From positions 1-39,146 of the IMG/VR virus record IMGVR_UViG_3300042904_000239: a stretch of 39,146 nt of DNA; one strand, 5' to 3'. Origin of the DNA: a virus. The stretch's first letter is position 1. Every line of letters begins with the position of its first letter. Shown here in pieces: positions 576-36,956 of this stretch. A model generated the notes under the pieces. That model ran no database searches. It saw only the letters and a list, made by a program, of their open reading frames with translations, and had not been told where the DNA came from. The translations under genes and the position numbers were made by a program.

Positions 576-617
576 GGAAAAACCTCTAGGTAGGTCGGCA
601 CAAGAACGGTAGGGTTC

Positions 618-645: not shown

Positions 646-681
646 TTCGCCGTAACGTGGCGCTGAAGCGGTAGGACTTAC

Positions 682-3570: not shown

Positions 3571-3719
3571 TAGTCAGACTTCCCGAAGTTGTGACGCCAG
3601 ATGTGGGTGAGCAGGTAGGACAGAGGGACAGTGATAGCGGGTTCTTGTGGCGGGACGGGAAAGCCCGCTAACCGACGAAGCCAATGGGCACGAAACGTAA
3701 TCTTTGGATCACACCACAT
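3570..3719 (-). CDS. 49-aa protein between portal and an unknown head-operon gene
   Basis: Short ORF beginning MWCDPKITFRAHWLRRLAGF and ending HIWRHNFGKSD. Its ATG (3717-3719) overlaps the stop of the upstream gene as TAATG, and its own TAA overlaps the ATG of the portal gene in the same way. The ORF therefore fits exactly between two coupled genes with no base to spare, which is strong structural support despite its size. It is rich in Trp, Arg and Pro, with a short amphipathic middle and no clear transmembrane segment. No family was recognised. Confidence 0.68.
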   Translation of the reverse strand: MWCDPKITFRAHWLRRLAGFPVPPQEPAITVPLSYLLTHIWRHNFGKSD

Positions 3720-4447
3720 TATCGACCTAACGTTTTGAAGTTGCCGCCGAGGAGGGTAGGGCGTCCAATGTTCTCGTCGTCAGGAACACCTTTCGACCCC
3801 GTAAGGAGCGTACTGTTCTTCCTTCGCCGTGGGGAGCTTGCGGGGGTTACGTCCGGTGAGGCGAGCGGTTGAACGGCGGGAGTAGCGGGGAGTTTCGGGG
3901 GTTCGGGTTGGAGGGCGGCTTGATAGGATTGTGCGGCGTCGAGAGAGACACCACCCGCCGCGCCTGTTTGGGTGGCGGCTGAAAGGATTGCCCCCGCAGC
4001 GGCTCCACCTTTTCCTTGTTTCGCTTTCTCGTTAGCGATGTAGCCAGCGCGGGCGTACTCACTGTATCCACCCGTAGCGAAGGCGGCGAGTCCGCGGGTG
4101 AGGGGGTTATTCAGTACCTTCTCTTTGAAGTCGCCTTTGTAGCGTGACCCTTTCGGGTGCGCGGCTAAGTGATTCAATCCCCACTCAGTTGCTTCGAGAC
4201 GATTATTTTTACCTGAATACTGTTCAGGCATTTGATACGTTTCAGCTTGCCAGTTACGAAGGATGGCGGCGTCGTCCGCGGTGGGGCGTCCTGCAACGAT
4301 CCGGTGAAGGGCCGTCGCTTCCTGTTCGGAGATACGAAAGTACGCGGCAAGGTCCGCCGTGTCGTACCCGAAGGTGAGCATCTTCGAGTCTTCGTCAAAC
4401 TGTTGTGTAGCTTTTTGAGCGGTGAGAAGGGTATCGCGGCGGGCCAT
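3719..4447 (-). CDS. Unknown head-operon protein
   Basis: 242 residues. The N-terminal ~70 residues look folded and helical, and DTADLAAYFRISEQEATAL could form a helix-turn-helix. The centre (about 130-175) is Gly/Ala rich (GKGGAAAGAILSAATQTGAA), and the C-terminal ~65 residues are Pro/Ser rich and probably disordered. It lies between the large terminase and portal and is joined to both sides by TAATG overlaps. The position and possible HTH would allow a packaging (small-terminase-like) role, while the Gly/Ala stretch would also suit a minor virion protein. Neither is proved by the sequence. Confidence 0.75.
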   Translation of the reverse strand: MARRDTLLTAQKATQQFDEDSKMLTFGYDTADLAAYFRISEQEATALHRIVAGRPTADDAAILRNWQAETYQMPEQYSGKNNRLEATEWGLNHLAAHPKGSRYKGDFKEKVLNNPLTRGLAAFATGGYSEYARAGYIANEKAKQGKGGAAAGAILSAATQTGAAGGVSLDAAQSYQAALQPEPPKLPATPAVQPLASPDVTPASSPRRRKNSTLLTGSKGVPDDENIGRPTLLGGNFKTLGR

Positions 4448-5823: not shown

Positions 5824-5954
5824 TAGAGACAGAGAACGAGTGAGACGAAGGGGAGGTTGATGAAGACGTACCGGGCGTTATTGCCCCGTTCAGTGGAGAA
5901 GGAAGGACGTTGCTTCCAGTCGTGACGACTTACAGTGAGGTTAAAGTAGTGCAT
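5823..5954 (-). CDS. 43-aa protein ahead of terminase
   Basis: ORF starting MHYFNLTVSRHDWKQRPSFS and ending with a hydrophobic stretch YVFINLPFVSLVLCL. The stop TAA overlaps the terminase ATG (TAATG), the coupling mode used throughout this operon. No strong Shine-Dalgarno precedes its ATG at 5952-5954. It is the first gene after a run of hairpins, so it may act as a leader peptide or a small membrane-associated protein. No family was recognised. Confidence 0.5.
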   Translation of the reverse strand: MHYFNLTVSRHDWKQRPSFSTERGNNARYVFINLPFVSLVLCL

Positions 5955-5965
5955 GGGTGGGATGC

Positions 5966-6093
5966 CCCGTGATTAACCTGGCTCACGGGACCAGAAGCCG
6001 TGTCCGCACAGTCATGTACGGAGTGGGCCGTTGATTCGCTATGCTGGCTCAACGGTTAAAGCCTCTGTACACTCTCCACACTCGGTAGAGAGT
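5966..6093. other. Chain of three hairpins upstream of the late packaging operon
   Basis: Three perfect inverted repeats follow one another: CCCGTGA 5966-5972 with TCACGGG 5983-5989; CCGTTGA 6028-6034 with TCAACGG 6049-6055; ACTCTC 6071-6076 with GAGAGT 6088-6093. The first two share the pattern GTGATT/GTTGATT ... GGCTCA(C/A)GG and look like diverged copies. With the terminator hairpin at 6112-6138 they form a structured 5' leader on the minus-strand transcript of the terminase-to-capsid genes, in the 254-base gene-free stretch 5955-6208. I see no standard promoter there. Confidence 0.45.
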
Positions 6094-6099
6094 CAGTTA

Positions 6100-6138
6100 G
6101 AAAAGGAAAGACGCCCCGACGCTCAACACGTCAGGGCG
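6100..6138 (-). terminator. Leftward Rho-independent terminator
   Basis: On the minus strand the arms CGCCCTGACG (6138-6129) and CGTCGGGGCG (6121-6112) pair with one mismatch around a 7-base loop. They are followed directly by the T-rich tract TCTTTCCTTTTC. This would end transcription from the 6209-8428 small-gene cluster before the packaging genes, implying that the late genes have a separate promoter or need antitermination. Confidence 0.6.
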
Positions 6139-6178
6139 CAAATGGGGCGAGGTTGAGAAGGCATGGAGGGGGTTGGGC

Positions 6179-6188
6179 GTTAGTAAAC
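6179..6188. repeat. GTTAGTAAAC operator-like motif, copy 1
   Basis: GTTAGTAAAC here also occurs at 8183-8192 and 13057-13066, each time between genes. GTT...AAC ends make it partly symmetric. This copy is just downstream of the 6209 gene stop. Flanks differ (CAAACT on the right, GGGC on the left). Confidence 0.4.
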
Positions 6189-6208
6189 AAACTGAGGATG
6201 TGGACTAT

Positions 6209-6385
6209 TTACCACGCTGCATGTAAACGTGCCGCGATATTGCCTATCTTCCACCCTACGTGGCGATATAACGGCTTACGGTATAGGCTATCCTCGAACG
6301 GGTTCCGCACGTAATCGCGCCAGCCCTCTACGACGCACACAGGTACCCATGTATCCACCCGTTCTCCGCAATAATCAAACGTCAC
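6209..6385 (-). CDS. 58-aa hypothetical protein
   Basis: Start taken at GTG 6383-6385 because a near-perfect Shine-Dalgarno AAGGAGG lies 5 bases before it; an upstream in-frame GTG at 6415 has no such site. The protein (TFDYCGERVDTWVPVCVVEG followed by WRDYVRNPF) has alternating hydrophobic and charged residues, two Cys and a basic C-terminus. No transmembrane segment and no recognised family. It is isolated: non-coding on the upstream side for about 700 bases, terminator downstream. Confidence 0.6.
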   Translation of the reverse strand: MTFDYCGERVDTWVPVCVVEGWRDYVRNPFEDSLYRKPLYRHVGWKIGNIAARLHAAW

Positions 6386-7083
6386 AGGAACCTCCTTGGT
6401 TGGTAGAAATGACACACTTTTCTAACTCGTGGAAAAAATGGTGCGGCGGGAAAATTGATCCCCACGCGGCGAACTCACGCCAACAAATTATGGGGTACGG
6501 GGGGTAAGACTCCAACAATTCCGCTGACTTACGAGGCGATAGACCCTCAGCTTGAGAGGCTGGGGTACTGTATAACCCGTGGGATTACAACAACTTAGCG
6601 GGAGAGCTACTATTCACATTATGAGGCATTCTGCCCCAGTCTCACTACCAGGACTACCACAAGTGGGGCAGGTTGCCACACTCACTACTACCCATAACCG
6701 TATGATCCCTATGCCGTCGCGTAACCACGCGAAATCCCATCACTATTTACTAGCCTACCGTAACCTATTGAAATCCCTACAATCCCACTTGTCCCACTAG
6801 TCTGTCCCACGGGGTGTGGTGGGACGACGATTATTCACGATTATCAACAATTACCATCGTATAAGTGCTTGTAATCCCATGCAATCTAGCGATGTGGTTC
6901 ATAACATCTCGAAATCCCATGTGTTTCTCTAAAAGCAAAGTCATGGGATTTCGCGCACTTACGACACAGAGCCTATAAACGTGCATGTAATAATATCAAT
7001 GACTTAGAGAATGTGGTGAAATGTGCCAAAAACAGATGGGATTTCGCTAACTTACGCAAAACACCCTTCAAAAGCCCAATGTT
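6386..7083. other. 700-base non-coding region with repeats; candidate replication origin
   Basis: No convincing gene. The core GAAATCCCAT occurs exactly at 6731-6740 and 6911-6920 and, inverted, at 6943-6952, 7036-7045 and 7116-7125 (the last in the end of the next gene). Looser copies are at 6579-6588, 6770-6779 and 6871-6880. Two adjacent DnaA-box-like nonamers, TTATTCACG (6831-6839) and TTATCAACA (6841-6849), each differ from TTATNCACA by one base and sit in an AT-rich patch. Hairpins CTGCCCCA/TGGGGCAG (6631-6638/6664-6671) and GTCCCAC/GTGGGAC (6804-6810/6819-6825) flank it. Iterons plus DnaA-like boxes plus AT-rich DNA suggest an origin. A regulatory repeat array is the alternative. Confidence 0.45.
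6910..6953. repeat. Perfect 12-bp inverted repeat in the candidate origin
   Basis: CGAAATCCCATG (6910-6921) is the exact reverse complement of CATGGGATTTCG (6942-6953), with a 20-base spacer. It contains two of the five exact copies of the repeat core. Confidence 0.8.
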
Positions 7084-8895: not shown

Positions 8896-8945
8896 CTAGC
8901 CTTCTAAGCTGAGGGTCGGAAGTTCAAGTCTTCCCGGGCGCACCA
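8896..8945 (+). other. attP: attP core: 3' half of a tRNA-Arg(UCU) gene
   Basis: The sequence reads as anticodon loop CTTCTAA (8901-8907, anticodon TCT), stem GCTGA (8908-8912), variable GGGTC, T-arm GGAAG/TTCAAGT/CTTCC (8918-8934), acceptor strand CGGGCGC, discriminator A and CCA (8943-8945). The 5' half (GCGCCCG... and D-arm) is absent upstream, and the 5' anticodon strand CTAGC does not fully pair. It is therefore a tRNA fragment, as carried by phages that integrate into a tRNA 3' end and restore it. It lies 125 bases before the integrase start with phage genes on both sides. Apparent ORFs across it are spurious. Confidence 0.85.
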
Positions 8946-9069: not shown

Positions 9070-9888
9070 ATGCAGCTTAAGACGTTCATCTACGAGCGGT
9101 ATTGGCCCACGATTAAACCCACATTGTCTCCGAAGTGGCAACAGCACACGGAACACTTGTTTAAGTTGATTGTGGGGAGGTTGGGGGAGTTTGACGTGAG
9201 CGACATTCCATTGGAGTACGTAGACGGATGGTGGTCGTACCTGCAAACGCTCTACGACACACCAGTCACACCAAACAAAGCGTTAGTGAGAGCCAAGCAC
9301 ATAATGAAGGTCGCTATCCGTTGGAAGCTCGCCCCGAGTAATCCCTTTCTCGATATTCGTAAGCTCAAAGAACCTGAACGGAAGTTTACGCCCATCAGTG
9401 ACGTAGTACACGAGACGTTATTCAATGACGCGTCCCCGAGACTCCAATGGTATCTCGTGTTTGCGCGTTATACCGGCGCACGTCTCTCGTCGTTAGCCAA
9501 ACTTGAAAGGAGGGATGTTAACCTTGAACGGAATACGGTTACTTTCAGGCGGACAAAGAATGGCGAAGATTACACAATACCTCTACATCCTAAGTTACGT
9601 CCTTGGTGTGAACGTCAGAGTGGGCAAACACCGACGGCGAAGGTGCTTCCTCAATACGCGGACCCACACGCTGTTAGTCAACTGTTCCGACGCCTTAAAA
9701 AGCGGCACGGCGTAGAGGGATTTCGGTTTCACGATTTCCGGCATAACGTCGGCACCAAGTTAGCTGAGGCGGGTCTCGACGTGAAAGGACGCATGCAGTT
9801 ACTAGGACATAAAGACTCACGCATGGCGATGAGGTACACCCACATCGCAGAAGACGTGTTAGGGAAAGCAATGGAGGCCGCACTATGA
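9070..9888 (+). CDS. int: Tyrosine-family integrase
   Basis: 272 residues. Site-specific recombinase for insertion into and excision from the host tRNA-Arg gene. The N-terminal SAM-like core-binding domain (about 1-100) is followed by the catalytic domain with Arg138 (TGARLSSL), Lys163 (RTKNGEDY), His221-x2-Arg224 (HDFRH), His247 (LLGHKD) and the nucleophile Tyr256 (MRYTH), all in the expected order. No separate arm-binding N-terminal domain is evident, making it short. AAGGGGGTG precedes the ATG. attP lies directly upstream. The stop overlaps the next gene's start by 4 bases, so it is co-transcribed with the early genes. Confidence 0.96.
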   Translation: MQLKTFIYERYWPTIKPTLSPKWQQHTEHLFKLIVGRLGEFDVSDIPLEYVDGWWSYLQTLYDTPVTPNKALVRAKHIMKVAIRWKLAPSNPFLDIRKLKEPERKFTPISDVVHETLFNDASPRLQWYLVFARYTGARLSSLAKLERRDVNLERNTVTFRRTKNGEDYTIPLHPKLRPWCERQSGQTPTAKVLPQYADPHAVSQLFRRLKKRHGVEGFRFHDFRHNVGTKLAEAGLDVKGRMQLLGHKDSRMAMRYTHIAEDVLGKAMEAAL

Positions 9889-11108: not shown

Positions 11109-11262
11109 TCAGTACGACGAAACACCGCAAGTCCTCGATAGCCGTCTCTATTACGACACGAAGGAGAAGGTGTATCTGTACCACGAAAAGGGTCAACTCG
11201 TGGGGGCGTATAACACGTTTGCAGACGCGGCGAAACAACTTAGCCAGAGGGGGAACTCATGA
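11089..11262 (+). CDS. 57-aa hypothetical protein
   Basis: Start ATG 11089 chosen because AAAGGGGGC precedes it; an earlier in-frame start at 11047 lies deep in the upstream gene. MKLTPHSQYDETPQVLDSRL, then YYDTKEKVYLYHEKGQLVGA: a beta-hairpin-like middle ending in a helix. No family was recognised. Stop overlaps the next ATG (ATGA). Confidence 0.65.
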   Translation: MKLTPHSQYDETPQVLDSRLYYDTKEKVYLYHEKGQLVGAYNTFADAAKQLSQRGNS

Positions 11263-11621
11263 AGTTGTCGGAAGCTATTTTGTTAGGGAGTATTGGGACA
11301 CCACAAGCATTTTGCGAGAGTCGGCCAGAGGAAGAAACAGCGTGCGCCTTAGAAGCTGCGGCGTTGGCTATTGGGGTGCCTAAAAGATTGTGGGGAGTGC
11401 TTGATCGTCATTGGCCGTGGATAAATCGGGCGGCTACATGTCCACACAGGGGAGAATGTGACTTTAACAGGGTGGACCGCGATGTAAGTCAAGTTATATG
11501 GCACCTTAACGACCAACACCATTGGCCGCGGCCCCAAATCGCCGCATGGGTCGCTACTATCGAACCCCAAGACACTCCCGTTGAAGCCGAAAAGGTAGAG
11601 CATGACCGAACCCGAGTTTGA
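11259..11621 (+). CDS. Conserved phage/prophage protein (MKLSEAILLGS family)
   Basis: 120 residues. It begins MKLSEAILLGSIGTPQAF and later has ALEAAALAIG, CPHRGEC (about 68-74) and VIWHLNDQHHWPRPQIAAWV. The same arrangement (MKLSEA start, Ala-rich middle, Cys pair, 'HLND-x-H-x-W-x-x-x-Q-I-A-x-W-V' end) is widespread in phages, with no established function. The Cys/His residues could bind zinc. It overlaps its neighbours on both sides (4 and 20 bases). Confidence 0.75.
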   Translation: MKLSEAILLGSIGTPQAFCESRPEEETACALEAAALAIGVPKRLWGVLDRHWPWINRAATCPHRGECDFNRVDRDVSQVIWHLNDQHHWPRPQIAAWVATIEPQDTPVEAEKVEHDRTRV

Positions 11622-12183
11622 AGCCCTTTACCTCAAACACCGGGCGGATTGGCTCACCCTCGCACGGAAGCTCACGAAGAACAGCGCCGTAGCAGAGGAC
11701 GTACTCTCCGAGGTGATGGTGATTGTCGCCAGTGAGGGGTTAGCGAAGTTTCAGATTAACGAGAACCCCGAAGCGTGGATACGGCAACGCCTCGTGTGGT
11801 ACGTGAAGCGTTTTATATGGTTGAATCCAAAGAACGTTGACTCGATGGAACAGAATACGGTGAGTATGACGGGGTACGAGAACGTCCTCCCCATCAAACC
11901 CCCAGTAGACGACGAAAGAACAACGCCCCTCGAAGGGCCACTTCGAAGGGCGTTAGACTCTCTCGACGTTGTGCAACAGGATATTATCTGTCTACGCGTC
12001 TTTGCGAAGATGTCATATCCTGAAATTGGAAGGATACTCAGCCTCCAACCGGATCAAGCGCGGAAGGCGTACAACCGGGCACTCCCGAGGCTTCAATTAG
12101 CGTTGGAGAGTGTCGGCATTTCAGCCCAGACATGCGGCGGAAGTATGCTGAACGCGATAACCCAAACCGAGTCTTCACGATAG
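11602..12183 (+). CDS. ECF-like RNA polymerase sigma factor
   Basis: 193 residues. Region 2 is about residues 6-72 (AEDVLSEVMVIVASEG core contact helix; NPEAWIRQRLVWYVKRFIWL at -10 recognition). A linker follows, then region 4 at about 113-168 (RRALDSLDVVQQDIICLRVF then MSYPEIGRILSLQPDQARKA), a standard -35-binding HTH. With no phage RNA polymerase visible, this is the best candidate for redirecting host polymerase, probably to the leftward late genes. It starts within the preceding gene and its 3' end overlaps the convergent ATPase gene by 146 bases, so both strands are coding there. Confidence 0.82.
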   Translation: MTEPEFEALYLKHRADWLTLARKLTKNSAVAEDVLSEVMVIVASEGLAKFQINENPEAWIRQRLVWYVKRFIWLNPKNVDSMEQNTVSMTGYENVLPIKPPVDDERTTPLEGPLRRALDSLDVVQQDIICLRVFAKMSYPEIGRILSLQPDQARKAYNRALPRLQLALESVGISAQTCGGSMLNAITQTESSR

Positions 12184-16218: not shown

Positions 16219-16343
16219 CAGCTCTAGCACCCGACGACAACGAAATGCACGAAGTCTATTCCTGTGACTGTGCCGAGTGTCGAGAGTGGCGGTTCGATCA
16301 ATGGCTTGAACATGAATATGACCGAGTGAGGGGGTACGGGTGA
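16215..16343 (+). CDS. 42-aa Cys-rich small protein
   Basis: GTG start overlaps the upstream stop (GTGA). Contains YSCDCAECREW (Cys at three positions, C-x-C-x2-C), a likely metal site, in an acidic helix-rich peptide. Its stop overlaps the lipoprotein start in the same GTGA fashion. No family was recognised. Confidence 0.55.
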   Translation: MTALAPDDNEMHEVYSCDCAECREWRFDQWLEHEYDRVRGYG

Positions 16344-16516
16344 AACACTTATTCTTACCACTTACTGTTTTGCTCACACTTACTGGGTGTGTGACTTCAT
16401 ATCGTGACGATTTCCCGCAAACTTGCCGCAACATTCAGCGGCATACCGAAGGGAACGGTTACGAGGTCATTTATTACCCGTGTAAGTGGGACTGGGTAGG
16501 AGAGATTCACAAGTGA
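16340..16516 (+). CDS. Small lipoprotein (58 aa)
   Basis: Begins (M)KHLFLPLTVLLTLTGCVTSY: basic start, hydrophobic core and lipobox LTGC (Cys17). The mature part is about 42 residues with two further Cys (CRNIQRH, YPCKWDW) that may form a disulphide in the periplasm. GTGA overlaps at both ends. It could be a surface-modifying or superinfection-exclusion lipoprotein; nothing specific shows which. It is not next to the lysis cassette, so an outer spanin role is less likely. Confidence 0.65.
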   Translation: MKHLFLPLTVLLTLTGCVTSYRDDFPQTCRNIQRHTEGNGYEVIYYPCKWDWVGEIHK

Positions 16517-24297: not shown

Positions 24298-24642
24298 TTA
24301 GCGTCTCCCTAGCCACTCAAAACTGAAGTGATTCCCGTCGTTAAAGCGCCCACCCCACCGTAGGGGGAGTTCGTGTTCAATCCCCAGGCACTCCCACAAC
24401 TCGCCCGCCTTCTGATAATCAGTGGTGTTGGTGAGGTACTTCTTATCCTTGTAGAGTAATAAGTCAGCCGCTAACCCTAACTCGTGTAACGACCCCTTCA
24501 TGTGGTCCGTCGTGGGGTCTTTGGCGGTGATACGGTCGGTTACTTCATCGAACGCTATCTCGTACCCCTCCCACGTAGACACTTCCACCACAAACCACGC
24601 GAGTTGTTTACTGAAGGCGCAACGGGCTTCTCGGAGTGTCAT
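24298..24642 (-). CDS. Endolysin: M15-type peptidase
   Basis: 114 residues from ATG 24640-24642 (ATGA overlap with the upstream gene). Zinc ligands follow the VanY/M15 pattern: SLHELGLAAD (H53, D60) and WGGRFNDGNHFSF (H105), with the catalytic Glu expected around EHELP/FEW. It cleaves peptidoglycan cross-links (L-alanyl-D-glutamate or D-Ala-D-Ala type). No signal sequence, so it depends on the holin. Single catalytic domain, typical size for Gram-negative phages. Confidence 0.88.
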   Translation of the reverse strand: MTLREARCAFSKQLAWFVVEVSTWEGYEIAFDEVTDRITAKDPTTDHMKGSLHELGLAADLLLYKDKKYLTNTTDYQKAGELWECLGIEHELPLRWGGRFNDGNHFSFEWLGRR

Positions 24643-25103
24643 AGCTTCACACACTCGCTAAAGGTGGGGTCGGTGCTGAGATACCCCGCCACCCACACGT
24701 TCATGTTTTGGGGTTCGTCGCTGGCGTTCGTGACCGCCCCGTCGAGTCTAAAACCAGGGGGGAGGATAAGGGGGACGTTTGTATGGACAGAGGACGCGTG
24801 TTCCGTAATCGTAATCGCACCCCATAACATGAGGTAGCTATTTCGAGTGGTGCCGTTCTTAATGATATTCTTACTGGCAAAGTGGAAGTCCGTTAGCCCG
24901 AGGTAGTGCCCCGTAGGGACGACGTAGGGGAAGCTATACCCATACGGGGCGTACGGGGGTTGATACGTGAGCGGGGTGTTAAACTGTTCCGTCCACGGTT
25001 TGACCGCCCCGATTGTAGCGGTGAACTGAATAAACTCACACGCCGCCGACGCAATTGACGGCCACAACAGACACGCGAGAAGGGCAAGGGCTTTAACACT
25101 CAT
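24639..25103 (-). CDS. Secreted protein between tail fibre and endolysin
   Basis: 154 residues. MSVKALALLACLLWPSIASA followed by AC is a classical signal peptide (cleavage after ASA near residue 20). The mature part is beta-rich (FIQFTATIGAVKPWTEQF, NSYLMLWGAITIT, PLILPPGFRLDG, NVWVAGYL). Virion proteins normally lack signal peptides, so it may act in the periplasm or outside during late infection. The beta-rich domain could also be a fibre-tip or accessory protein. It overlaps the fibre gene by 11 bases, so is co-expressed with the late genes. No family was recognised. Confidence 0.7.
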   Translation of the reverse strand: MSVKALALLACLLWPSIASAACEFIQFTATIGAVKPWTEQFNTPLTYQPPYAPYGYSFPYVVPTGHYLGLTDFHFASKNIIKNGTTRNSYLMLWGAITITEHASSVHTNVPLILPPGFRLDGAVTNASDEPQNMNVWVAGYLSTDPTFSECVKL

Positions 25104-26364: not shown

Positions 26365-29300
26365 TTAGTTACCGGCGATGGTGAGGGCGTCGAGGTCTAC
26401 GGTAGAGTTCTCAATGGCATCGTCTGAGGGGACTACGGGAACGGACTTCATCTTACGGGCTTTCTCTTTCGCGGCGTCCTTCATGGCTTGCTTGATTTCA
26501 GGGTGCTTCTTCAACATTTTCAACTCGCCCATTTCCACGAAGGCGTGGACGAGGTGACGGATCATTAACGACTTCCGACCGTCAGGCCCATCACTTCCAC
26601 GCTTGTACGTCCCTGTTTCCATCATGTGTGCAAGGGACTCGTGGAGGTTCCGCCCGCCCTTTTTGACTTCGTGAGTGATGATCTTCTGTAACTCGTGAGC
26701 GGCTTCGGGGGTGAGCTTGACGCCGTGGATTTCGTCGTCAGCGGTGGAGACTTGCGTACCATGCTTGACGATTTCGTTGAGTACCTTATCGTCCTTAAAC
26801 TCCCCCTTGAGTGGGGAGAAGACGATAGGTTCCCCCGTGATCGGGTGGAGACGGGGTAACAAATCCTTCGAGAGTCCCGGGGTACGCTTACGGGCTTCCT
26901 CAATGATGCCGTCAGCTTCACGCACCACGGGGTCAAGTTGTTTCGTAGCAAAGTTCGTCATACCCGCCCCGAGGACTGGGGTAAGCGAGATAACTTCCTT
27001 CTCAATGGTAGACGTAAGGAACTCGTCGGGCATGGCGAAGGCGAGCATGGTACGTGACAACCCCTGAATCCACGTCTTTGAACTCATCGCTTTGAACGTA
27101 GCCAGGGCTAACGACGCGGCTAAGTCTTCCGTCTTCTCGTAGCCGTTCGCTACGAGTTCGTAATAGTTCGCCGCCATACCCAACATTGACCCGAGGGGTT
27201 CAATACGGTTAATAGGCTTCAGTACGTCACCCTTCCGCCAGGTTGGATCTTCCCCCATTGCCTTACGTTTGATAGCGGACACGTTGAGGGAATACGGCAT
27301 ATACCCCGCTTCCCGCCACACTTTTGCCTGGTCGGGGAACTTCTTGGAGTCTGGACCGGCCCCCGTAATGAGACCGTCAGACGCCCACAACACGCCTAAG
27401 CCTGTGAGGAGTGCGCCGGTTTGGAGTTTGGCTAGTGTCAGTTCAGCCCTTGCACCCCCCTGGTTCAGTTCGTGATACGTGGACTTGGCGAGGAGGGCTA
27501 ACGGTGAGCGTTCCCCCACGATTTTGAAGATGTTCAGGGGGGCTTTAATGAACGGGACGACGAGTTTAACGGCTAAGAACTTATTCGACCCCTCAGTGAG
27601 CCACTGGCCGAACTCGCCTAACCCAGTCGTCATGGTGTTGTACGCGGCGAACTTTTCAGCCTTTTGCTGGATGTCCACGGGTACGTCGGCGCGGTACTGT
27701 TCGGTAAGTTCCTTCACCTTTGCCGCGAGCTTCTTACCTGTCAACCCTTCCGCGTTGGCGACGTTGTAGGCTTCTCGTAACGAGAGGGCGTGTATCTCCA
27801 TTTGAAAGTTGATCGACTTGAAGAACTCGTCAGCCGTGAGGAGTAATCTACCCCCCGCGCCTTCCATGAACGCTGAGAGGTAGTCCAAGGGTGGGCCGAA
27901 CGGACCTAATTTCTCCACGTCCGCAAACAACGCCTTCGGTGGGCGTTCACCTTTCGACGCCCCGAACTTCGCCGCGTCTTCACCCTCTCGGGCAACCTTC
28001 GCAGCTAACGTGAGGGCGTCCCCGAATCCCGCAAACATCCCCTGAACCATTGCGAGGGCTTCCCCAGGTCGGACTTCTCCACCCGCCAGTCCCGCTATCT
28101 GACGCTCGAAGATGGACATGGTGGACATGGCGGTGTTGCCGAGTCCGTTGAAGACGTGGGTGGTGGGGGCACTCAGTAACGAGTTAATGAACAACGGTAC
28201 GAACGCGTCCTTAAACTCAGGCTTGACGGCGTTCTTGGCGAAGGAGGCTAACTGTTCAGGTGTTTCCAGTTCCTTCACCATTTCAAGGAGGCGTTGAGCC
28301 GACACACCTGTCTTCGCCTCTTTCATTAGGCCGCTAAATTGATCAAGGAACAGGCGCATCGCCTCCATTTCGACAGGCTTGTTCACGCCAAGAATACGCT
28401 CCGATCGGGCGGACTCAGCCGCTGCGCCAAAGCGTTTGGGGTCTAGTACCATGCCGTGAGTCCAAAACGCCTTTAAGAATTCTTGGAATGAGGCGTCGTC
28501 CGTCACACTTCCCGCGAGGTCTAACACCTGACGCCCCGACTCGGTGAGGACTTTATGGAGGGCGTACATTTCTTCCACGTTGAGGGCCGTACCAGGCATG
28601 AGACGTTGAATCGTCTCAGGGGTTATGGCGGCGTAGTCGATAAGTTTCTCACCCCCCGCCATTGCTTCGGGGTCGGACACCACACCACGCTTCTGAAACT
28701 CGACAAGGTTACGGTATTGATTCTGGAAGTGGCCTATGTCGAGGGAGGCAACGGGGGCAGCTTCCGCACCCGCTTCCGTAGCCTGTCCCGCTGTTTTAGG
28801 GGCTTTCGTAGCTCCACCCTTGACGAGTCCTGCAATACGTTTGATGAGGGCTGGTGAGGCTAACCCACCCCCTAACGCCCCAATGACGGCGTTACGGACA
28901 GCGTTCTCCTCGTCACCCGCCATTGATCCCGCAACCGCGCCGAGTATCGCCCGTGTCAGGAACATCGCGGGTTGAACGTTGACGGACCCCTTCTCGTTGC
29001 CGATGTTGTTACGGATGATCTTGGGGAGGGATTGTAAATACTCGTCAACCGCTTGGAAGGTGCTACCCATTAACGATTGAGGGTTGCGGACGACGGCTTC
29101 GGACATGGCGGGGGTGACGGGGAGACTATGTACTTTGAAGCCTTCAGGCGTGGCTGTTGAGTGTAAGTGTTGCGTCAGTTCAGCGTCGGAAAGGGCGTCT
29201 ATCTCTTTCCCGCTCAACTTACTGGGGGCGGGTAACGTCGTCTCCTCAACCTTACTCCCCCACTTCTTCCCGTACTTATTCAAGAAGCGTGGGACGATTT

Positions 29301-31125
29301 CGTCGTAGAAGCCCTTCATCCCTTCGCCGCCGACTTTGAGGTCAAGACCTTCGAGCGTAAGGCGTCCGTCTTCGTTCGCGTGACCTTCCCCGGCAACAAT
29401 CTTTTTCGCAACGTCTTTGCCGACGAAATCTTCTAACTTGGTATCGACCATATTAAACTGTTCCGTAAGGACTTTACCGTCTTTTACGATAAACAAGTCA
29501 AAGGTGCCGTCAGCGTTCTTGTTATAGTCAATCGCATCAATCTGTTTCGCTAAGTCATACCGTTCCGCCTGTTGTGCCCCCGTGGTCCACGCTATCCGTT
29601 CGTACCCCTCTTCCGCGGCCATACGGAGAACACGTTTCAACGCTAACTCGTGCCAGGTCTTTTTGAAAGGGGCGTCGGGGACACGGCCACTTTTAACGTG
29701 CGGTTCGCCCGAGTTCATTTCATCGAGGTAGGATTGTCGTTGAGCGTCGTCTAAACCCGCCCACGTTTCGTCATTGATACCGAAGAACTGTTTTGCTTCT
29801 TCGGGGGTTTTCGCCTCGCCCGCGTACCCCTGTTGTCTCCCCTTCTGATGCCAGTCTGACTGTATCTCCTCAATGAATAACGTGCGCTTGCCTTCCGCGT
29901 CTAACCGATCATTGAGGCGCATGTGGACGAGGATGTTAGGTTCGTCGAAGTGGGGGGATTTAAAGTTAGCCGCGGTGTCGGGAACCGTGACGGACGTACG
30001 GTCGCTATACGACTCCTTAACGGGTAACTCTTTCGTCTGTTCAGGCAACGTCAACAACACTTCCCGATAGTTCGTCCCACCGGGGAGGGTGTATTGAGAG
30101 AACTTGGTGTCGTCTTGTGCGCCCTTTTCACTTAACGCAAGAAACTCTGCCTGTTGTTCGGCAGTTTCTAACCGGCCCATATCGTTAAGTTGCGTTAATA
30201 AGCGGAGGCGTTGCGTATCTTCAGGCTTACTACGCTCACCCGCGGGGGTACGTTCAACCTCCTTTATCTCTACCTGATTCTCCTTCACGAACTGAAGAAG
30301 CTCGTCCTTCTTGACGACTTCCTTCCCCGCCAAGAACCCGTCAAGGTCCATCCATTTCGCTTCTTCGGGGGACACGCCCGAGTTAGCGAGTGTCGCTTGA
30401 ACCTGTTGCGGCGTGGCAACAGTCGGCACCTTCGCTTCAATGACACGTTGGGTGGGGGAGTAGAATACGTCGGGGGTGAGAAGGCGGTTGTTAATCATAC
30501 CCGCTTCAGAGGCGAGGTCCACGCCCGCGGCTTTGGACGCCTCGCCCACTTTCGCGGCGACATTCGTAACACCTTCACCCACCTTTGTATAGGTGCCTTT
30601 AGGGGCGAGACCTATACCGGGGAGGTACGTGAGGGGGTCAGTAGCGAGGTTGACGGCTAACTCGGTGACGGCGTGGGAGACTGGATCACCTTCCGTCACG
30701 CCGCCCGCGATGTACGCGGCGACGTTCTCACCCGTAAGGTTCGTACCCCGAGCTTCGTTAATCTTCTTCGCTATCGCTTCACGTACGACTTCAGCGGGGT
30801 ATTCAAACGCCCCGAGGTCTAACACGGGGGGTTGAGCGGGGGTGGGTTTGGCGAGGTTCTTCTGTAACTTCGCCTGACGGTTCGCTTCACCTTCCGCCTT
30901 ATGCTGTTCGATAATCTGAGGCGTAAGGGTAGGCTGTTCCCCGACCGGCTTACCGGAGTGCATGTCGTATTCGACACCCTCTTGCACGGTAGACTTCTCG
31001 CCTTTACCCGTGTCGCCTTTGGGGATGAGGCGTATCTCTCTACCTGTAGGGGAGTTATCAAACTCCGCTTCGGTGCGGTGCTTCAGGTACGAGTCGTCAG
31101 GGTGTAACCAGGATGAGAGGTCCAT
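26365..31125 (-). CDS. Large internal virion / polyvalent ejection protein (LPD38-type)
   Basis: 1586 residues. Features in order: disordered N-terminus; helical region; NILVHMRLNDRLDAEG and EIQSDWHQ (about 420-427), the signature of a domain found in phage polyvalent proteins. Next comes a hydrophobic stretch (FLTRAILGAVAGSMAGDEEN); then a long helical half with the pattern I associate with the large polyvalent-protein domain LPD38 (FFKSINFQMEIHALSLREAY ... KFLAVKLVVPFIKAPLNIFK). Such proteins enter the cell with the DNA, forming the ejection channel and carrying effector domains. Start ATG directly abuts the upstream stop (TAAATG). Confidence 0.8.
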   Translation of the reverse strand: MDLSSWLHPDDSYLKHRTEAEFDNSPTGREIRLIPKGDTGKGEKSTVQEGVEYDMHSGKPVGEQPTLTPQIIEQHKAEGEANRQAKLQKNLAKPTPAQPPVLDLGAFEYPAEVVREAIAKKINEARGTNLTGENVAAYIAGGVTEGDPVSHAVTELAVNLATDPLTYLPGIGLAPKGTYTKVGEGVTNVAAKVGEASKAAGVDLASEAGMINNRLLTPDVFYSPTQRVIEAKVPTVATPQQVQATLANSGVSPEEAKWMDLDGFLAGKEVVKKDELLQFVKENQVEIKEVERTPAGERSKPEDTQRLRLLTQLNDMGRLETAEQQAEFLALSEKGAQDDTKFSQYTLPGGTNYREVLLTLPEQTKELPVKESYSDRTSVTVPDTAANFKSPHFDEPNILVHMRLNDRLDAEGKRTLFIEEIQSDWHQKGRQQGYAGEAKTPEEAKQFFGINDETWAGLDDAQRQSYLDEMNSGEPHVKSGRVPDAPFKKTWHELALKRVLRMAAEEGYERIAWTTGAQQAERYDLAKQIDAIDYNKNADGTFDLFIVKDGKVLTEQFNMVDTKLEDFVGKDVAKKIVAGEGHANEDGRLTLEGLDLKVGGEGMKGFYDEIVPRFLNKYGKKWGSKVEETTLPAPSKLSGKEIDALSDAELTQHLHSTATPEGFKVHSLPVTPAMSEAVVRNPQSLMGSTFQAVDEYLQSLPKIIRNNIGNEKGSVNVQPAMFLTRAILGAVAGSMAGDEENAVRNAVIGALGGGLASPALIKRIAGLVKGGATKAPKTAGQATEAGAEAAPVASLDIGHFQNQYRNLVEFQKRGVVSDPEAMAGGEKLIDYAAITPETIQRLMPGTALNVEEMYALHKVLTESGRQVLDLAGSVTDDASFQEFLKAFWTHGMVLDPKRFGAAAESARSERILGVNKPVEMEAMRLFLDQFSGLMKEAKTGVSAQRLLEMVKELETPEQLASFAKNAVKPEFKDAFVPLFINSLLSAPTTHVFNGLGNTAMSTMSIFERQIAGLAGGEVRPGEALAMVQGMFAGFGDALTLAAKVAREGEDAAKFGASKGERPPKALFADVEKLGPFGPPLDYLSAFMEGAGGRLLLTADEFFKSINFQMEIHALSLREAYNVANAEGLTGKKLAAKVKELTEQYRADVPVDIQQKAEKFAAYNTMTTGLGEFGQWLTEGSNKFLAVKLVVPFIKAPLNIFKIVGERSPLALLAKSTYHELNQGGARAELTLAKLQTGALLTGLGVLWASDGLITGAGPDSKKFPDQAKVWREAGYMPYSLNVSAIKRKAMGEDPTWRKGDVLKPINRIEPLGSMLGMAANYYELVANGYEKTEDLAASLALATFKAMSSKTWIQGLSRTMLAFAMPDEFLTSTIEKEVISLTPVLGAGMTNFATKQLDPVVREADGIIEEARKRTPGLSKDLLPRLHPITGEPIVFSPLKGEFKDDKVLNEIVKHGTQVSTADDEIHGVKLTPEAAHELQKIITHEVKKGGRNLHESLAHMMETGTYKRGSDGPDGRKSLMIRHLVHAFVEMGELKMLKKHPEIKQAMKDAAKEKARKMKSVPVVPSDDAIENSTVDLDALTIAGN

Positions 31126-32721
31126 TTACTTCTTCTTCACCACGCTAGAGGTTTTGGTAGGGGAGGAGGCGGGGGTAGACACCTTATCGGCGTTCGAGAA
31201 GTACCATAACATCTGATCGGACTCCGTGCGGCTAATCTGTTTCGCTTCGTAGAGTTTAATTACGTCGCCGGGGGACTTGACGTTGTACTTCTCCACAATC
31301 GCTCCCGTTACGTCGAGGTATCTATCCGCCACGTAATCACGATACTTGAGCATAAGCCGCCGCCCTTCCGTTTGGGGGTCGAGCTTCGGGTCATTACGGA
31401 GATTCGTAAACAGTTCGTCTTGGAAATTCTGTTGTGCGTCAGAGGAAGTACCGTCAAAGTCGTTAATCCCCGTCACCCGTAACATGGGCTGAAACGTGTC
31501 TACCGCTTCCTTAATCAACTTCGTACGGACTTGTTCGGTTTCAGTCTTGAGCGAATGAATCCGTTCCGTGATCCGGTTGAACATCGTCGCGTGTTGTTGG
31601 GCGTCGATCTTGTGGGAGTACAGAAGGGCGTCTACGTGTCCGTACGTGCCTTGAGTGGGGTTCAACTCAATCTCACGTTTGACCTTCCCAATCGCCCGCG
31701 TATCCTTATCGGTGGGGAGGGGACTCTTGAGGTATTCCCGCACCCGTCCAACTGTGTCGTCGTAATGTGTCCCGAGGGCTAGGCGTGTCTCTTGATTCTG
31801 TAACCGTGCGTATGCCGCGCCGGGGTCTTGTATCGCTTGCCCGATAATCTCACTCATCACACTTTGGGCGTAGAACTCGTTATTCTCCTTCTCAACCTTA
31901 CGACGGTGTTCCGCCCGTGTCACCTTCGCGTCGAGGGCTTTGTCAGCGTGGGTGACTAACTCACTTCGTAACTTCGGTTCGAGGCGGTCGAACTCGTGGT
32001 TTTCGTTCCCGTCAAGGAAGCCTTGAGGATCACGGGCGACGACTTGATACGCCCGTTTCGTTTCGACGGTCTCCTTAAACGCTTCCTTCTTGGCGACTAT
32101 CTGATCATGGTTGTACGCACCGGACTTCTCAAGGGTGTCGAGGTGTGCGAGCCAACCTTGAACCCCCTGTTGATACCCTTCGTAGTCACCGATGGACTCC
32201 GCAAGGAGCGCCTGGTTCATGGCCATGTCGCCTTGAGCGTCTGTCTTCTTGTGGGTAATATCAATGAAGGACGTACGGGCGTGAGTACGCGCCTTCATCA
32301 TTGTGTCGGTGTAGACGTGATCGTAGGCGAGGTCTAAGGCTTCTTGTGCGTACGGGTTCTTTTTCGCTTCCTCACCGTACGCCGCGTCCATTAACCCGCG
32401 TTGGTCTTTGAAGAACTGTTCAAAGTCGAGGACGGCATTTTCTGTTGACTCCCCCTGTTGAACAACCTTCGTGTCCCAGTCGTTCCAGAATTGGGACGCC
32501 TTGTCCCGTAGGGCGTATTCAAACCCTTTCGCCCGCGTTGTAGCGGTCGTTTTATTCTGGCTATCGGCTAACGCGGTGAAGTATTGCAAGCCCTGGTTTG
32601 CGGTATTTGCTATTTGTTTTCCAGCGGTTGCGAAGGCGGACCCTTCCCCGGCGTACTGAGCGTTCGGTAGGGCCGTACGATTAGGTAGACTCTGTGACTC
32701 TTGCGGGCGTATAATAATCAT
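31126..32721 (-). CDS. Internal virion / ejection protein (gp15-like)
   Basis: 531 residues, almost entirely charged alpha-helix with repeated helical hairpins (KGFEYALRDKASQFWNDWDT ... DQRGLMDAAYGEEAKKNPYA ...). It ends VVKKK after a Ser/Thr/Pro linker. Length, composition and position between a gp14-like protein and the giant polyvalent protein match podovirus internal core proteins that form part of the trans-envelope tube. The ATG at 32719-32721 has no recognisable Shine-Dalgarno, and the plus-strand lipoprotein gene occupies its upstream side. Confidence 0.72.
   Translation of the reverse strand: MIIIRPQESQSLPNRTALPNAQYAGEGSAFATAGKQIANTANQGLQYFTALADSQNKTTATTRAKGFEYALRDKASQFWNDWDTKVVQQGESTENAVLDFEQFFKDQRGLMDAAYGEEAKKNPYAQEALDLAYDHVYTDTMMKARTHARTSFIDITHKKTDAQGDMAMNQALLAESIGDYEGYQQGVQGWLAHLDTLEKSGAYNHDQIVAKKEAFKETVETKRAYQVVARDPQGFLDGNENHEFDRLEPKLRSELVTHADKALDAKVTRAEHRRKVEKENNEFYAQSVMSEIIGQAIQDPGAAYARLQNQETRLALGTHYDDTVGRVREYLKSPLPTDKDTRAIGKVKREIELNPTQGTYGHVDALLYSHKIDAQQHATMFNRITERIHSLKTETEQVRTKLIKEAVDTFQPMLRVTGINDFDGTSSDAQQNFQDELFTNLRNDPKLDPQTEGRRLMLKYRDYVADRYLDVTGAIVEKYNVKSPGDVIKLYEAKQISRTESDQMLWYFSNADKVSTPASSPTKTSSVVKKK
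32686..32715 (+). promoter_or_regulatory. Promoter of the plus-strand lipoprotein moron
   Basis: TAGACT (32686-32691), 18-base spacer, perfect TATAAT (32710-32715), then GAAAGGGG and the ATG at 32737. It reads out of the 5' end of the leftward gp15-like gene. A host sigma-70 promoter would allow expression in the lysogen. Confidence 0.6.
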
Positions 32722-32736
32722 AGAAAGGGGTGACTT

Positions 32737-32952
32737 ATGATCTACCTTATAGTGTTAGCTGCGTTACTCGGTGGATGTGCGTCAAGCTCGAACTGGGAAG
32801 GGTTAGGACGGGCGACGTACAATTACTGCATTGACGGATTAAAAACTGAACGTGAGCGAGATTTGAAGTGTGGGCGCTACCTCACACAAGCTGAACCAAC
32901 GGCGTCTGTTCCGGTCGCTATCGTAACGGTAATGCCGACACAGTTGCATTAA
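32737..32952 (+). CDS. Small lipoprotein moron (71 aa)
   Basis: MIYLIVLAALLGGCASSSNW is a lipoprotein signal with lipobox LGGC (Cys14) and Ala/Ser after it, which favours outer-membrane sorting. The mature part has NYCIDGLKTERERDLKCGRY (two Cys) and a Val/Pro-rich tail. It is on the strand opposite to all surrounding late genes and has its own promoter, the hallmark of a moron. Possible roles are superinfection exclusion or surface change in the lysogen; an outer spanin is possible but no inner partner is seen. Its stop overlaps the end of the gp14-like gene by 4 bases. Confidence 0.72.
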   Translation: MIYLIVLAALLGGCASSSNWEGLGRATYNYCIDGLKTERERDLKCGRYLTQAEPTASVPVAIVTVMPTQLH

Positions 32953-33464: not shown

Positions 33465-33895
33465 TACAACACCTTCGAGTAGAGGTAATACGTCTCACCG
33501 TTCGGGCCGTAGTTTAGTAGCCCGTTCGGTGTATCGTTGGTAAAGCCTAACTTTTCAACAAACTTAATGGCCGTTGAGAAGTCCGCGGCAATCGTGGCCT
33601 GTATGCGTCGATAGTGGGGCGCGGCTACGTTAAGGTACGCCACCGCTTGACGGTAGACGAAACCCGCGTGTTTGCGTCCTTCGGGGGTGACGGCAAACCA
33701 CGCTTCCCCCACACCAGGCCATACGCGTACGATACCACCAGCAACCAATAGCCTATTATCCTTCGTCCCGACATACGAGATCCCTTTCAATAACTTCTCC
33801 GTGAGGTCTGAGTCGAGGAGGGACCACGAGGCGTCTTTCGACCCGTCACGTAACCACTCAATATCGTCACACTGTAACCGTCTAACTTCGTACAT
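33464..33895 (-). CDS. Gp13-like / GNAT-fold virion-associated protein
   Basis: 143 residues from ATG 33893-33895, which overlaps the previous stop (TAATG); an upstream in-frame start at 33988 would run inside the tail gene. The sequence MYEVRRLQCDDIEWL ... LLVAGGIVRVWPGVGEAWFA ... RIQATIAADFSTAIKFVEKL GF has the GNAT acetyltransferase layout: strand, GxG-like turn region, then the final 'A-x-x-F-x-E-K-L-G-F'. It matches the phage T7 gp13-type family. An assembly or internal virion role is more likely than real acetylation. Confidence 0.72.
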   Translation of the reverse strand: MYEVRRLQCDDIEWLRDGSKDASWSLLDSDLTEKLLKGISYVGTKDNRLLVAGGIVRVWPGVGEAWFAVTPEGRKHAGFVYRQAVAYLNVAAPHYRRIQATIAADFSTAIKFVEKLGFTNDTPNGLLNYGPNGETYYLYSKVL

Positions 33896-35853
33896 TAGTC
33901 TTCTATTTCCAAGCGTCCGTAGTGCCCGAGGATAGTCGAGGGGAGGGGTTGAATTTGAGAGAAGGTGAGTTGTCCGTTTCGATCCCACCCCGAGTTAGAC
34001 ACGCGCACGTCGCCGTCAAACTCAGGGGGCGGAGCGTCCATCGGGTCTGAGGCGGAACGAAAGGGGTATTGATCCCCCTCAATCGTCATACCGAGTGTGT
34101 CAACGACGCGGACAAATATCTCACTCCACTTCTTCCGTTTCCCTTGGGACGTACCCCCGTCAGGCATTTTCACTTCGGGGCGTAAGGTGGTAATGGTGGA
34201 GTTGTAATGGAGGCCAACGTGAATCTCTTGAGCCGCGGGGCCGTCTAACGTAATCTCGCCACTGTCCACGGTTTCGCGTGGGTACACTGCGCCGTCCCCT
34301 ACCGAGACGACAACCTCACCCTCTAAGTGATCTAAACCGGACACGGCGGTTGTGGCTGACCCATCGTATGTCAAGGCACAATCCATTTGTAGGTTCGGGT
34401 CGAAGTATTCAACGTACCGTTTCGTAGAGCCGTCGATGGTACGCTTCACCACCACCCATGTTTCATCGTAGCTTCCGTCTGATGAAGGAATGGTAGCGAC
34501 GGCTTCAAAGAGTCCGGTTGCGTCCGTGGTGTGGCGGGCGAGGGCAATGATTTCTTGCGCGGGGTTGTACGTGAGGGAGACAAGCACCCCGTCACTTCTC
34601 ACAAGCCATACGATTGAGTCGGGTTCTTGCTGATACGACATATCCACGATAGAGGGCGTGGTGATGTGTTCAGCGAGAAGGGTTAAGTCAGTAGCGAGGT
34701 ACGTGCCCCCTGCGGCGTCGAACTTCAACTCACGTATCTTTTTACCCGAGCGTTGAATGAATAGAGCGGCGTTACCGACGAGGGCGATTGTTCCACTTAA
34801 CGAGCCGTGGGTAGACTGACGACGGACGGTGACGTTAGTTGGTGTGAGGGGTGAATCATTCCCCCCGAACAACGCGAACTCGCCCCCCACTGTCCCGACG
34901 AGTAGTCCCACACTCGACGCTAACCACTTAATCGCGTTCACCTTGTTTGCGGCAATGGTGTACGTCAAGGCGTCGTCATCGTCAGCACCAGGGGTGAAGT
35001 CTTCGTAATCGCTCGACACACTCAACCACACCGTTTGGGGTTGTTCAGTTGAGCCGCCAAACGCTAATCGTTCCTCGAAGAACGTCACGGCTGAGGGGTA
35101 GCCGGTTGTGTCGCTCCACGCGCCCAACCGCCACTCACTCTTAGAGGTCGTGTCGGTGAGGGTGGAGTTAATAGTAATTTCAACTTCAGTCGCACTTGTG
35201 TAATCGGTGATAGTTGCCCACCCCCACACCGCCCCTTCGAGTATCCGAATAGACCGCCCCACGTCAGTTGAAACGAACAAGTTAGCCGACGCGGTGAGGG
35301 TGACACCGCTTCCAGTCGCGGCGGACGGGGTGAGGGTGATTGAGAGGGGTGAACCCGACGCCGTGAACAAATTCGCGTCAAGGTACGGGCCGTCCCAAAA
35401 GGAGACCGTCGTAAGTGTCCAAGATGTGTGAGAGGAACGGGTGAGTTTGCGGGGGGCGTACGAAGGGTGACAGATGTAGAGGGTATCAGCGGATTGAGCA
35501 AATGTGAGGTCAAAGATGTCCGCTTCGAGGTAGGGGGTAGCGATTTCCGTAGGGACAGACGCGACTTCGATTCTCCCGTTATCCCGGTAGAACCGCATGT
35601 ACTGATCCCCCACCTCAATAATGTAGGCTTGCGTGGTGGAGAACTCGAAGGGGATGAGACGGGTAGCCGTGGCGGACGTTTTCACCTCAGCGACGAAGTG
35701 GGTTCCGTTACGCCGCGACACGCCCCCGTGGGGGAGGGTGATGTAGTTCTCTTGCGTCTCTAACCCGTTGGCGTACTTATTAAAGTCTACGCGTAGGGAG
35801 AGCCGGGGGGAGAGTTCACCCGCGGTGTAGTTGGTTTGGATGGGGTAGGCCAT
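33895..35853 (-). CDS. Tail tubular/nozzle protein (gp12-like)
   Basis: 652 residues. The N-terminus QTNYTAGELSPRLSLRVDFN, KYANGLETQENYITLPHGGV and SRRNGTHFV is the conserved start of podovirus tail nozzle or stabilisation proteins. The remainder is beta-rich with DEAD-like repeats of 'W-x-x-x-x-x-x-L-x-F-G' type (FFEERLAFGGSTEQPQTVWL). It forms the distal tube of the tail. The ATG has no visible Shine-Dalgarno; a plus-strand moron lies immediately upstream. Confidence 0.85.
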   Translation of the reverse strand: MAYPIQTNYTAGELSPRLSLRVDFNKYANGLETQENYITLPHGGVSRRNGTHFVAEVKTSATATRLIPFEFSTTQAYIIEVGDQYMRFYRDNGRIEVASVPTEIATPYLEADIFDLTFAQSADTLYICHPSYAPRKLTRSSHTSWTLTTVSFWDGPYLDANLFTASGSPLSITLTPSAATGSGVTLTASANLFVSTDVGRSIRILEGAVWGWATITDYTSATEVEITINSTLTDTTSKSEWRLGAWSDTTGYPSAVTFFEERLAFGGSTEQPQTVWLSVSSDYEDFTPGADDDDALTYTIAANKVNAIKWLASSVGLLVGTVGGEFALFGGNDSPLTPTNVTVRRQSTHGSLSGTIALVGNAALFIQRSGKKIRELKFDAAGGTYLATDLTLLAEHITTPSIVDMSYQQEPDSIVWLVRSDGVLVSLTYNPAQEIIALARHTTDATGLFEAVATIPSSDGSYDETWVVVKRTIDGSTKRYVEYFDPNLQMDCALTYDGSATTAVSGLDHLEGEVVVSVGDGAVYPRETVDSGEITLDGPAAQEIHVGLHYNSTITTLRPEVKMPDGGTSQGKRKKWSEIFVRVVDTLGMTIEGDQYPFRSASDPMDAPPPEFDGDVRVSNSGWDRNGQLTFSQIQPLPSTILGHYGRLEIED

Positions 35854-35861
35854 AAAGGGGC

Positions 35862-35889
35862 TTGCGACGGAACGGCGGGGGCGTATAGA
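35862..35889 (+). promoter_or_regulatory. Promoter of the CTERM-like moron
   Basis: TTGCGA (35862-35867), 16-base spacer, TATAGA (35884-35889), then GGAGGTGAG before the ATG at 35915. Both hexamers match 4 of 6 consensus bases. Spacing is one base short of ideal. Confidence 0.5.
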
Positions 35890-35914
35890 CTAGGGGTATA
35901 AACGGAGGTGAGTT

Positions 35915-36397
35915 ATGCTAAGACAACTACTGATCTTATTGTGTTTTGCCGTGCCGGTGAATGCCGCTTCCTACACACTCACAAGCGGAGACGTGGCGGG
36001 ATACTTTCACTTTGAGGCGAACGCCGTAACGGATCGGCTCTTTAGCTACACCATTAACGGCCTGACGCATCATTGGACGGTTGACGATAGTAACTACTAT
36101 TCCACCCTGTCAGGGTCGTTCCTCTCGACCAATGCCAAAAATATGACCCTCACGTTTCAATTCTGTTTTGACGATTGTCGGATGATTCAAGGCACTATCC
36201 CGCTTCAGAATGCGTATACAGCGAACGTCTTTGACAACAATCGTGCATATCGCCCCGCGTCCACCACGGGGTTTTTCAACGCCACAAACAGCCAAGCGGC
36301 GTCAGCTACGTCTATCCCTTTACCTGGAATGACTGTCTTCACGTTGGCGCTTGGGACGCTGATGGCATTAACGCGACTTAGTAGCGTATGTCGGTGA
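35915..36397 (+). CDS. Secreted protein with VPLPA/PEP-CTERM-like sorting tail (moron)
   Basis: 160 residues. Signal peptide MLRQLLILLCFAVPVNA (cleavage before residue 18), a beta-rich Ser/Thr/Asn/Tyr mature region with one Cys pair (FQFCFDDCRM, 84 and 88). The C-terminus is IPLPG (134-138), a ~15-residue hydrophobic segment and a terminal Arg-containing tail (LTRLSSVCR). That tripartite end is the layout of VPLPA-/PEP-CTERM signals processed by exosortase in EPS-making Gram-negative bacteria. Strong GGAGGTGAG site and own promoter on the strand opposite to the late genes. Its last 20 bases overlap the end of the tail tube gene. Likely expressed in lysogens. Confidence 0.72.
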   Translation: MLRQLLILLCFAVPVNAASYTLTSGDVAGYFHFEANAVTDRLFSYTINGLTHHWTVDDSNYYSTLSGSFLSTNAKNMTLTFQFCFDDCRMIQGTIPLQNAYTANVFDNNRAYRPASTTGFFNATNSQAASATSIPLPGMTVFTLALGTLMALTRLSSVCR

Positions 36398-36956
36398 GAA
36401 TCGAGGAGGTCTGTTCTTCCTGGTAATCGTCTTGCCCGTCCGCAACCTTCGCTTCCTTCATCTTCTCTAGGTACTCACCCCACATGGAGTCACGGTACGA
36501 TTGTTTCCCCGTGATCACGTTGGCGAGTTCAAAGGCTAAGAGGGCTTCGAGGGCGTCCACGTGGAGGGAGTCGTAGGAGGCTACGTCGGTATTGTCGAAC
36601 ACGTACGTAATGTAGAGAGACGACTCATCCGTCACAAGTACCCGTTGACCGTTATACGTTTCGAGCTTGTAGGCTTCGTCGTATTGGTCAATGGAGGTTT
36701 TGACCATCTTCATAAAGTCTGACGGGAGGGCGAACATATAGGAGTATTCCCATACGGGTTCGGCGTCGAGTTCCGCGAGAGCGACACGTTTAATGGAGTC
36801 GTTCCAGTTCCCCTTACGCAACAACGCCTGACGAGTAGGGTCAAACTTTCGATTGCACCATCTAGCACGGTTCGTGTTGTCGCTAAGGGACGTAATAGGA
36901 TCGTCACCAAGTTTCCCGAGTGCGTTAGAACAGATGGAAACAGTTGTATTAGCCAT
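36378..36956 (-). CDS. Tail tubular protein A (gp11-like)
   Basis: 192 residues. ICSNALGKLGDDPITSLSDN, then CNRKFDPTRQALLRKGNWN and YMFALPSDFMKMV: the conserved pattern of podovirus head-tail adaptor/tail tube A proteins ('A-L-x-x-L-G ... Y-x-x-x-R-x-x-L-L ... P-W/N-W ... Y-x-L-P-x-D'). It forms the gatekeeper ring between portal and nozzle. The next downstream late gene (nozzle) is separated from it only by the plus-strand moron. Confidence 0.88.
   Translation of the reverse strand: MANTTVSICSNALGKLGDDPITSLSDNTNRARWCNRKFDPTRQALLRKGNWNDSIKRVALAELDAEPVWEYSYMFALPSDFMKMVKTSIDQYDEAYKLETYNGQRVLVTDESSLYITYVFDNTDVASYDSLHVDALEALLAFELANVITGKQSYRDSMWGEYLEKMKEAKVADGQDDYQEEQTSSILTDIRY

Follow-up and report, generated by a model that had tools for sequence, protein, structure and literature searches.

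An optional gene for a candidate envelope protein, inserted in reverse orientation between the tail genes of a temperate T7-like podovirus

Results

A temperate podovirus with a tRNA-Arg attachment site

The DNA analyzed here, referred to as the window, is an IMG/VR virus record of 39,146 bp from a temperate T7-like podovirus (HTVC010P-type). Its recognizable genes encode tail tubular proteins A and B (TTPA and TTPB), internal virion proteins, a terminase, a head-tail adaptor, a DNA polymerase, a sigma-factor-like protein and a tyrosine integrase, TTPB being closest (~48%) to that of Pelagibacter phages of the HTVC010P type. The presence of both the integrase gene (9070-9888, plus strand) and a 45-base attP core identical to the 3′ half of tRNA-Arg(TCT) (CTTCTAAGCTGAGGGTCGGAAGTTCAAGTCTTCCCGGGCGCACCA; 8901-8945, plus strand) indicates that the phage is temperate. 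The same 45-mer is carried unchanged by the related phages L002/L032 and L031, the latter of which starts within 2 bp of the attP site, and no exact match to it was found in 84,980 species genomes (genome_contigs). The nearest loose matches, ~90% identical, were to tRNA-Arg of Methylophilales phages and to Rhizobiales plasmid sequences; they hint at a host that may be a pseudomonadote and decide nothing.

Comparison with the circular relative L002 indicated that the window is incomplete, ~4 kb being missing between its two ends. Another IMG/VR contig, L035, is 99.6% identical to positions 99-6616 of the window.

A moron inserted between TTPB and TTPA

Between the leftward genes for TTPB (phrog_376; 33895-35853, minus strand) and TTPA (phrog_394; 36378-36956, minus strand) lies, on the opposite strand, an ATG-initiated open reading frame (ORF) encoding 160 amino acids (35915-36397, plus strand), in agreement with the first-pass annotation of this DNA, which had reported a plus-strand gene amid leftward tail genes. 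The 3′ ends of the ORF and of TTPA overlap by 20 bp, and a Shine-Dalgarno-like element (GGAGGTGA; 35904-35911, plus strand) can be read 3 nt before the ATG. The encoded protein consists, in order, of a signal peptide, a Thr/Ser/Asn-rich ectodomain, the motif IPLPG, a C-terminal hydrophobic helix and the terminal sequence RLSSVCR.

The ORF occupies a 524-bp segment between TTPB and TTPA (35854-36377) that corresponds to 16 bp in L002/G001, a relative of 42,889 bp which, because of its 45-bp end repeat, is probably a complete circular genome. The DNA of the two phages is 82-100% identical over aligned pieces covering most of the window, and their TTPB proteins are 92% identical. TTPA and TTPB could both be located in another 20 relatives, where their alignment ends lie within ~100 bp of one another, leaving no room for the gene, and the encoded protein was absent from the 13 related records searched for it. 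The gene is thus specific to this phage among the relatives compared and, given the empty site in L002 and the lack of room in the 20 others, may be regarded as optional cargo. The earlier proposal of a phage moron was borne out by this clean insertion, which is missing from a near-twin, placed on the opposite strand, lower in G+C (50.5% vs 53.9%) and carried by a phage that has both an integrase gene and an attP of tRNA-Arg type; we consider the identity of the ORF as a true phage moron to be well supported.

Coding evidence and upstream signals

When scored against the codon usage of the phage, the ORF's own frame was the best of six, with 0.06 bits/codon, a value exceeded by all core genes (0.13-0.43 bits/codon). 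A score this low is the pattern of a recent acquisition and not strong proof of coding. Homologues of the ORF were found neither in viral contigs, GTDB genomes, annotated phages and plasmids nor in the related records, the viral- and genome-contig searches reaching close relatives only, and no match of the protein in Pfam, NCBIfam, PHROGs or PDB rose above chance. The low codon score, the lack of a homologue in any collection searched and the existence of a single known sequence would all fit an ORF without function, be it a chance 160-codon frame in inserted DNA or a decaying gene. Against this, the ribosome site is strong, the signal peptide starts exactly at the first ATG, the layout runs the full length of the ORF up to the C-terminal helix, its own frame prevails over the five others in codon usage, and the phage genome is dense. 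Dense phage genomes rarely retain 500 bp of junk. On balance, we consider a non-functional ORF improbable.

The gene had also been credited with its own promoter, a claim that was not confirmed: the site concerned, TTGCGA-16 nt-TATAGA (35862-35889, plus strand), matches the consensus at just 8 of 12 positions and was not reported upstream of the ORF by a consensus promoter scan. No terminator was found for the ORF, and no sigma-54 site (GG-N10-GC), typical of proteobacterial PEP-CTERM genes, was seen upstream of it by eye. The weak promoter-like site contains GGCGTATA, which occurs three times in the window vs 0.7 expected (35880-35887, 32706-32713 and 11205-11212), each time on the plus strand and 31-54 bp upstream of a plus-strand gene start. 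Both plus-strand genes of the tail block, namely the moron and a lipoprotein gene at 32737-32952, have it 31-35 bp upstream, and GGCGTATA is possibly part of a phage promoter. A sigma-factor-like protein encoded at 11602-12183 (phrog_1740) could read phage-specific promoters.

Other envelope-directed and tail-region genes

The second plus-strand gene in the leftward tail block (32737-32952, plus strand) encodes a 71-aa lipoprotein (MIYLIVLAALLGGC) with the lipobox LGGC, and the same slot in L002 is occupied by a diverged lipoprotein of similar start and different remainder. Thus, this phage group appears to keep envelope-directed genes reversed within its late block, which supports the view that the tail block carries optional envelope-directed genes in reverse orientation; we infer that such genes may serve in phage exclusion.

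Elsewhere in the window, a 58-aa lipoprotein (16340-16516) weakly matched the Cor family of superinfection exclusion proteins in PHROGs (E 0.001), the match being confined to the signal-peptide region, and a stretch of the 1586-aa internal virion protein (26365-31125) matched an endolysin PHROG (phrog_7348), as is expected of a cell-wall-piercing ejection protein. In L002 (4307-9199; also L031, 9571-13656), four consecutive late genes located between capsid-region genes and TTPA each start with a Sec-type signal peptide, an unexpected feature for tail-region proteins. One of them encodes a 921-aa spike-like protein with a lectin/LamG domain (Pfam) which, judged by its resemblance to the window's spike, is beta-helix-like. 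This four-gene stretch is missing from the window or cut at the contig end.

The position of the moron in the tail block, and the several signal-peptide proteins found beside the tail genes of L002 and L031, raise the question of whether its product might be a virion-associated protein or a tail-assembly accessory and not a lysogeny gene. Both the orientation of the gene, opposite to that of the late genes, and its dispensability in a 92%-identical relative speak against such a function, to which we give little credence.

An exported protein with a single C-terminal helix

As had been claimed, the protein begins with a signal peptide: MLRQLLILLCFAVPVNA (35915-35965, plus strand), followed by A, was recognized by inspection as a standard Sec signal peptide without lipobox, likely to be cleaved after A17 (V-N-A↓A). 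Inspection of the sequence and a hydropathy survey disclosed no further membrane segment between this signal peptide and the C-terminal tail. Export of the predicted protein to the envelope is supported at the sequence level, and the combination of a signal peptide with a C-terminal helix would confer on it a simple periplasm-facing topology.

The ectodomain (~116 residues) contains 13.8% Thr, 10.3% Ser and 9.5% Asn (33.6% summed), 4.3% Lys+Arg and 1.7% Cys; the spike of the same phage is similar in composition, with 27.5% Thr+Ser+Asn. A low-confidence single-sequence AlphaFold2 model (mean pLDDT 46.8) placed an N-terminal helix at residues 2-10, seven strands and a C-terminal helix at residues 139-158; the ectodomain is probably beta-stranded.

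A beta-rich periplasmic domain, as this weak model has it, followed by a C-terminal transmembrane helix is the layout of unimolecular spanins, or u-spanins (PMC6139136). The sole N-terminal Cys of the moron protein, however, lies in ILLC, which misfits the u-spanin lipobox consensus [LVI][ASTVI][GAS]C (PMC6139136), and its periplasmic domain contains two Cys (FCFDDC), where 0 of 58 u-spanins have any (PMC6139136). Further, the gene does not adjoin the endolysin-like gene at 24298-24654, and L002 does without it. With no lipobox, two periplasmic Cys and a location outside a lysis cassette, u-spanin identity was set aside as very improbable indeed.

The C-terminal tail and the exosortase question

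The protein ends with SIPLPG-MTVFTLALGTLMALT-RLSSVCR (residues 134-160 and 36314-36394, plus strand, from IPLPG onward), the 15-residue hydrophobic core of which has a mean hydropathy of 1.76. The first-pass annotation had read this tail as the IPLPG, hydrophobic helix and Arg-containing end of an exosortase substrate. The layout and the Arg are indeed present, but the basic cluster is not, RLSSVCR having two separated Arg in seven residues; IPLPG, for its part, retains the PLP of VPLPA and differs from it at the first and last positions. Among 3441 distinct ORFs of at least 60 codons collected in six frames from the window and related phage contigs, this was the most hydrophobic PxP-helix-basic tail, and the moron was the only strong-tail ORF to have a strongly hydrophobic N-terminus as well; when the protein was shuffled 200,000 times, the tail layout arose 31 times, and a PxP within eight residues before the helix arose in 0.5% of ectodomain shuffles, all of these being flattering figures in that the motif was picked after having been seen.

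PEP-CTERM proteins have been described as ending, at the extreme C-terminus, in a short motif and a hydrophobic helix of ~14 residues (PMC1569441); the motif is a near-invariant Pro-Glu-Pro (VPLPA in the variant), and a strongly basic region of five residues follows the helix. Whether searched as whole protein, tail alone or contig DNA, the moron yielded no match to the NCBIfam and Pfam sorting-signal models at E<=10, and direct searches with TIGR03370 and PF07589 returned no match. Synthetic VPLPA-CTERM and PEPxxWA-CTERM (PEP-CTERM) controls passed through the same search scored 39.8 and 48.3 bits, respectively, far above the cut-off, indicating that the filters do not simply lose short tails. 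As both the HMM match and the basic cluster fail, the protein was not assigned to the PEP-CTERM/VPLPA-CTERM family, and its earlier designation as an exosortase substrate of that type failed the HMM check that had been suggested for it. No exosortase gene is encoded on the phage contig, and the synthetic VPLPA probe drew a single weak match from PHROGs, in which no other family carries a tail of this kind. A BLAST search with a synthetic VPLPA tail gave no hits, probably owing to low-complexity filtering, and plasmids, surveyed for real sorting tails, yielded none above the cut-off. None of the papers searched that concern exosortases together with phages, prophages or morons, or VPLPA-CTERM, describes a phage-encoded substrate.

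The missing HMM match leaves room for a divergent signal that would work like that of an exosortase substrate. A host exosortase would then cut at IPLPG, and the phage protein would be released to the cell surface or into the EPS matrix, altering the lysogen surface. HMMs for short signals can miss divergent examples, as stated for GlyGly-CTERM (PMC3237569), and the tail does present a PxP at the edge of the helix, a hydrophobic run of 15 residues vs the 14 described and then a basic residue, all at the extreme C-terminus of a protein that has a signal peptide but lacks any further membrane segment. The bias toward Thr+Ser+Asn (33.6%) and away from Lys+Arg (4.3%) is that described for PEP-CTERM proteins, of which an absence of homology outside the tail is likewise typical. 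This composition is nonetheless shared by other surface proteins of the phage, such as its spike, and the Cys content of 1.7% compares with ~0.4% in PEP-CTERM proteins. Added to the failure of every sorting-signal model where the synthetic controls succeeded, the dispersed R-LSSVC-R end, the lack of an exosortase on the contig and the near-silence of PHROGs, these differences lead us to view exosortase processing as unlikely, though deserving of consideration, and a plain C-terminal anchor as the likelier reading on the tests available. That the protein might block EPS receptors used by the phage's own tailspike is speculation.

Discussion

The explanation that we favor, with middling confidence, is that the moron encodes an exported envelope protein anchored by its C-terminus, acting independently of exosortase and having as its likeliest role, by analogy, the exclusion of competing phages. 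A temperate T7-like podovirus would have recently acquired the gene. Its product, once expressed, would be exported by the Sec pathway with loss of the signal peptide; the beta-rich domain would fold in the periplasm, and the C-terminal helix would keep the protein in the inner membrane, facing the periplasm, with its short tail in the cytoplasm. The envelope of the lysogen so altered would exclude competing phages (superinfection exclusion), as other prophage envelope genes do. The failure of any sorting-signal model to match the tail favors such an anchor. Weighing against it are the lack of a homologue of known function, exclusion being argued from analogy only, the weak codon support and unclear promoter, and a structure model whose pLDDT of 46.8 says little. 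A plain anchor would also not need features as specific as a PLP at the helix boundary and an ectodomain rich in Thr/Ser/Asn and poor in Lys/Arg.

If the protein is a plain membrane anchor, the gene adds one more orphan envelope moron. Were processing by a host exosortase to prove true, the protein would, as far as the literature searched goes, be the first known phage cargo to take this Gram-negative route of surface sorting, and prophages would thereby be connected with the surface traits of flocs and biofilms.

Set beside known systems, the moron protein shares with VPLPA-CTERM/PEP-CTERM substrates (TIGR03370, TIGR02595, PF07589) a signal peptide, a homologue-less ectodomain rich in Thr, Ser and Asn, and a PxP opening a C-terminal helix of ~15 residues that is followed by a basic residue. 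It departs from them in having IPLPG in place of VPLPA or PEP and two separated Arg in place of a basic run, and in being phage-encoded, with no HMM match and no exosortase on the contig. With unimolecular spanins such as phage T1 gp11, it would have in common a beta-rich periplasmic domain and a C-terminal transmembrane helix, but it differs by the missing lipobox, the two periplasmic Cys and a location outside the lysis cassette. Finally, although it is no lipoprotein, carries a C-terminal anchor and bears no sequence similarity to them, it resembles prophage envelope morons such as the Cor-type superinfection exclusion lipoproteins (phrog_1119) in being the predicted exported product of a single small opposite-strand gene that lies among late genes and is optional in close relatives.
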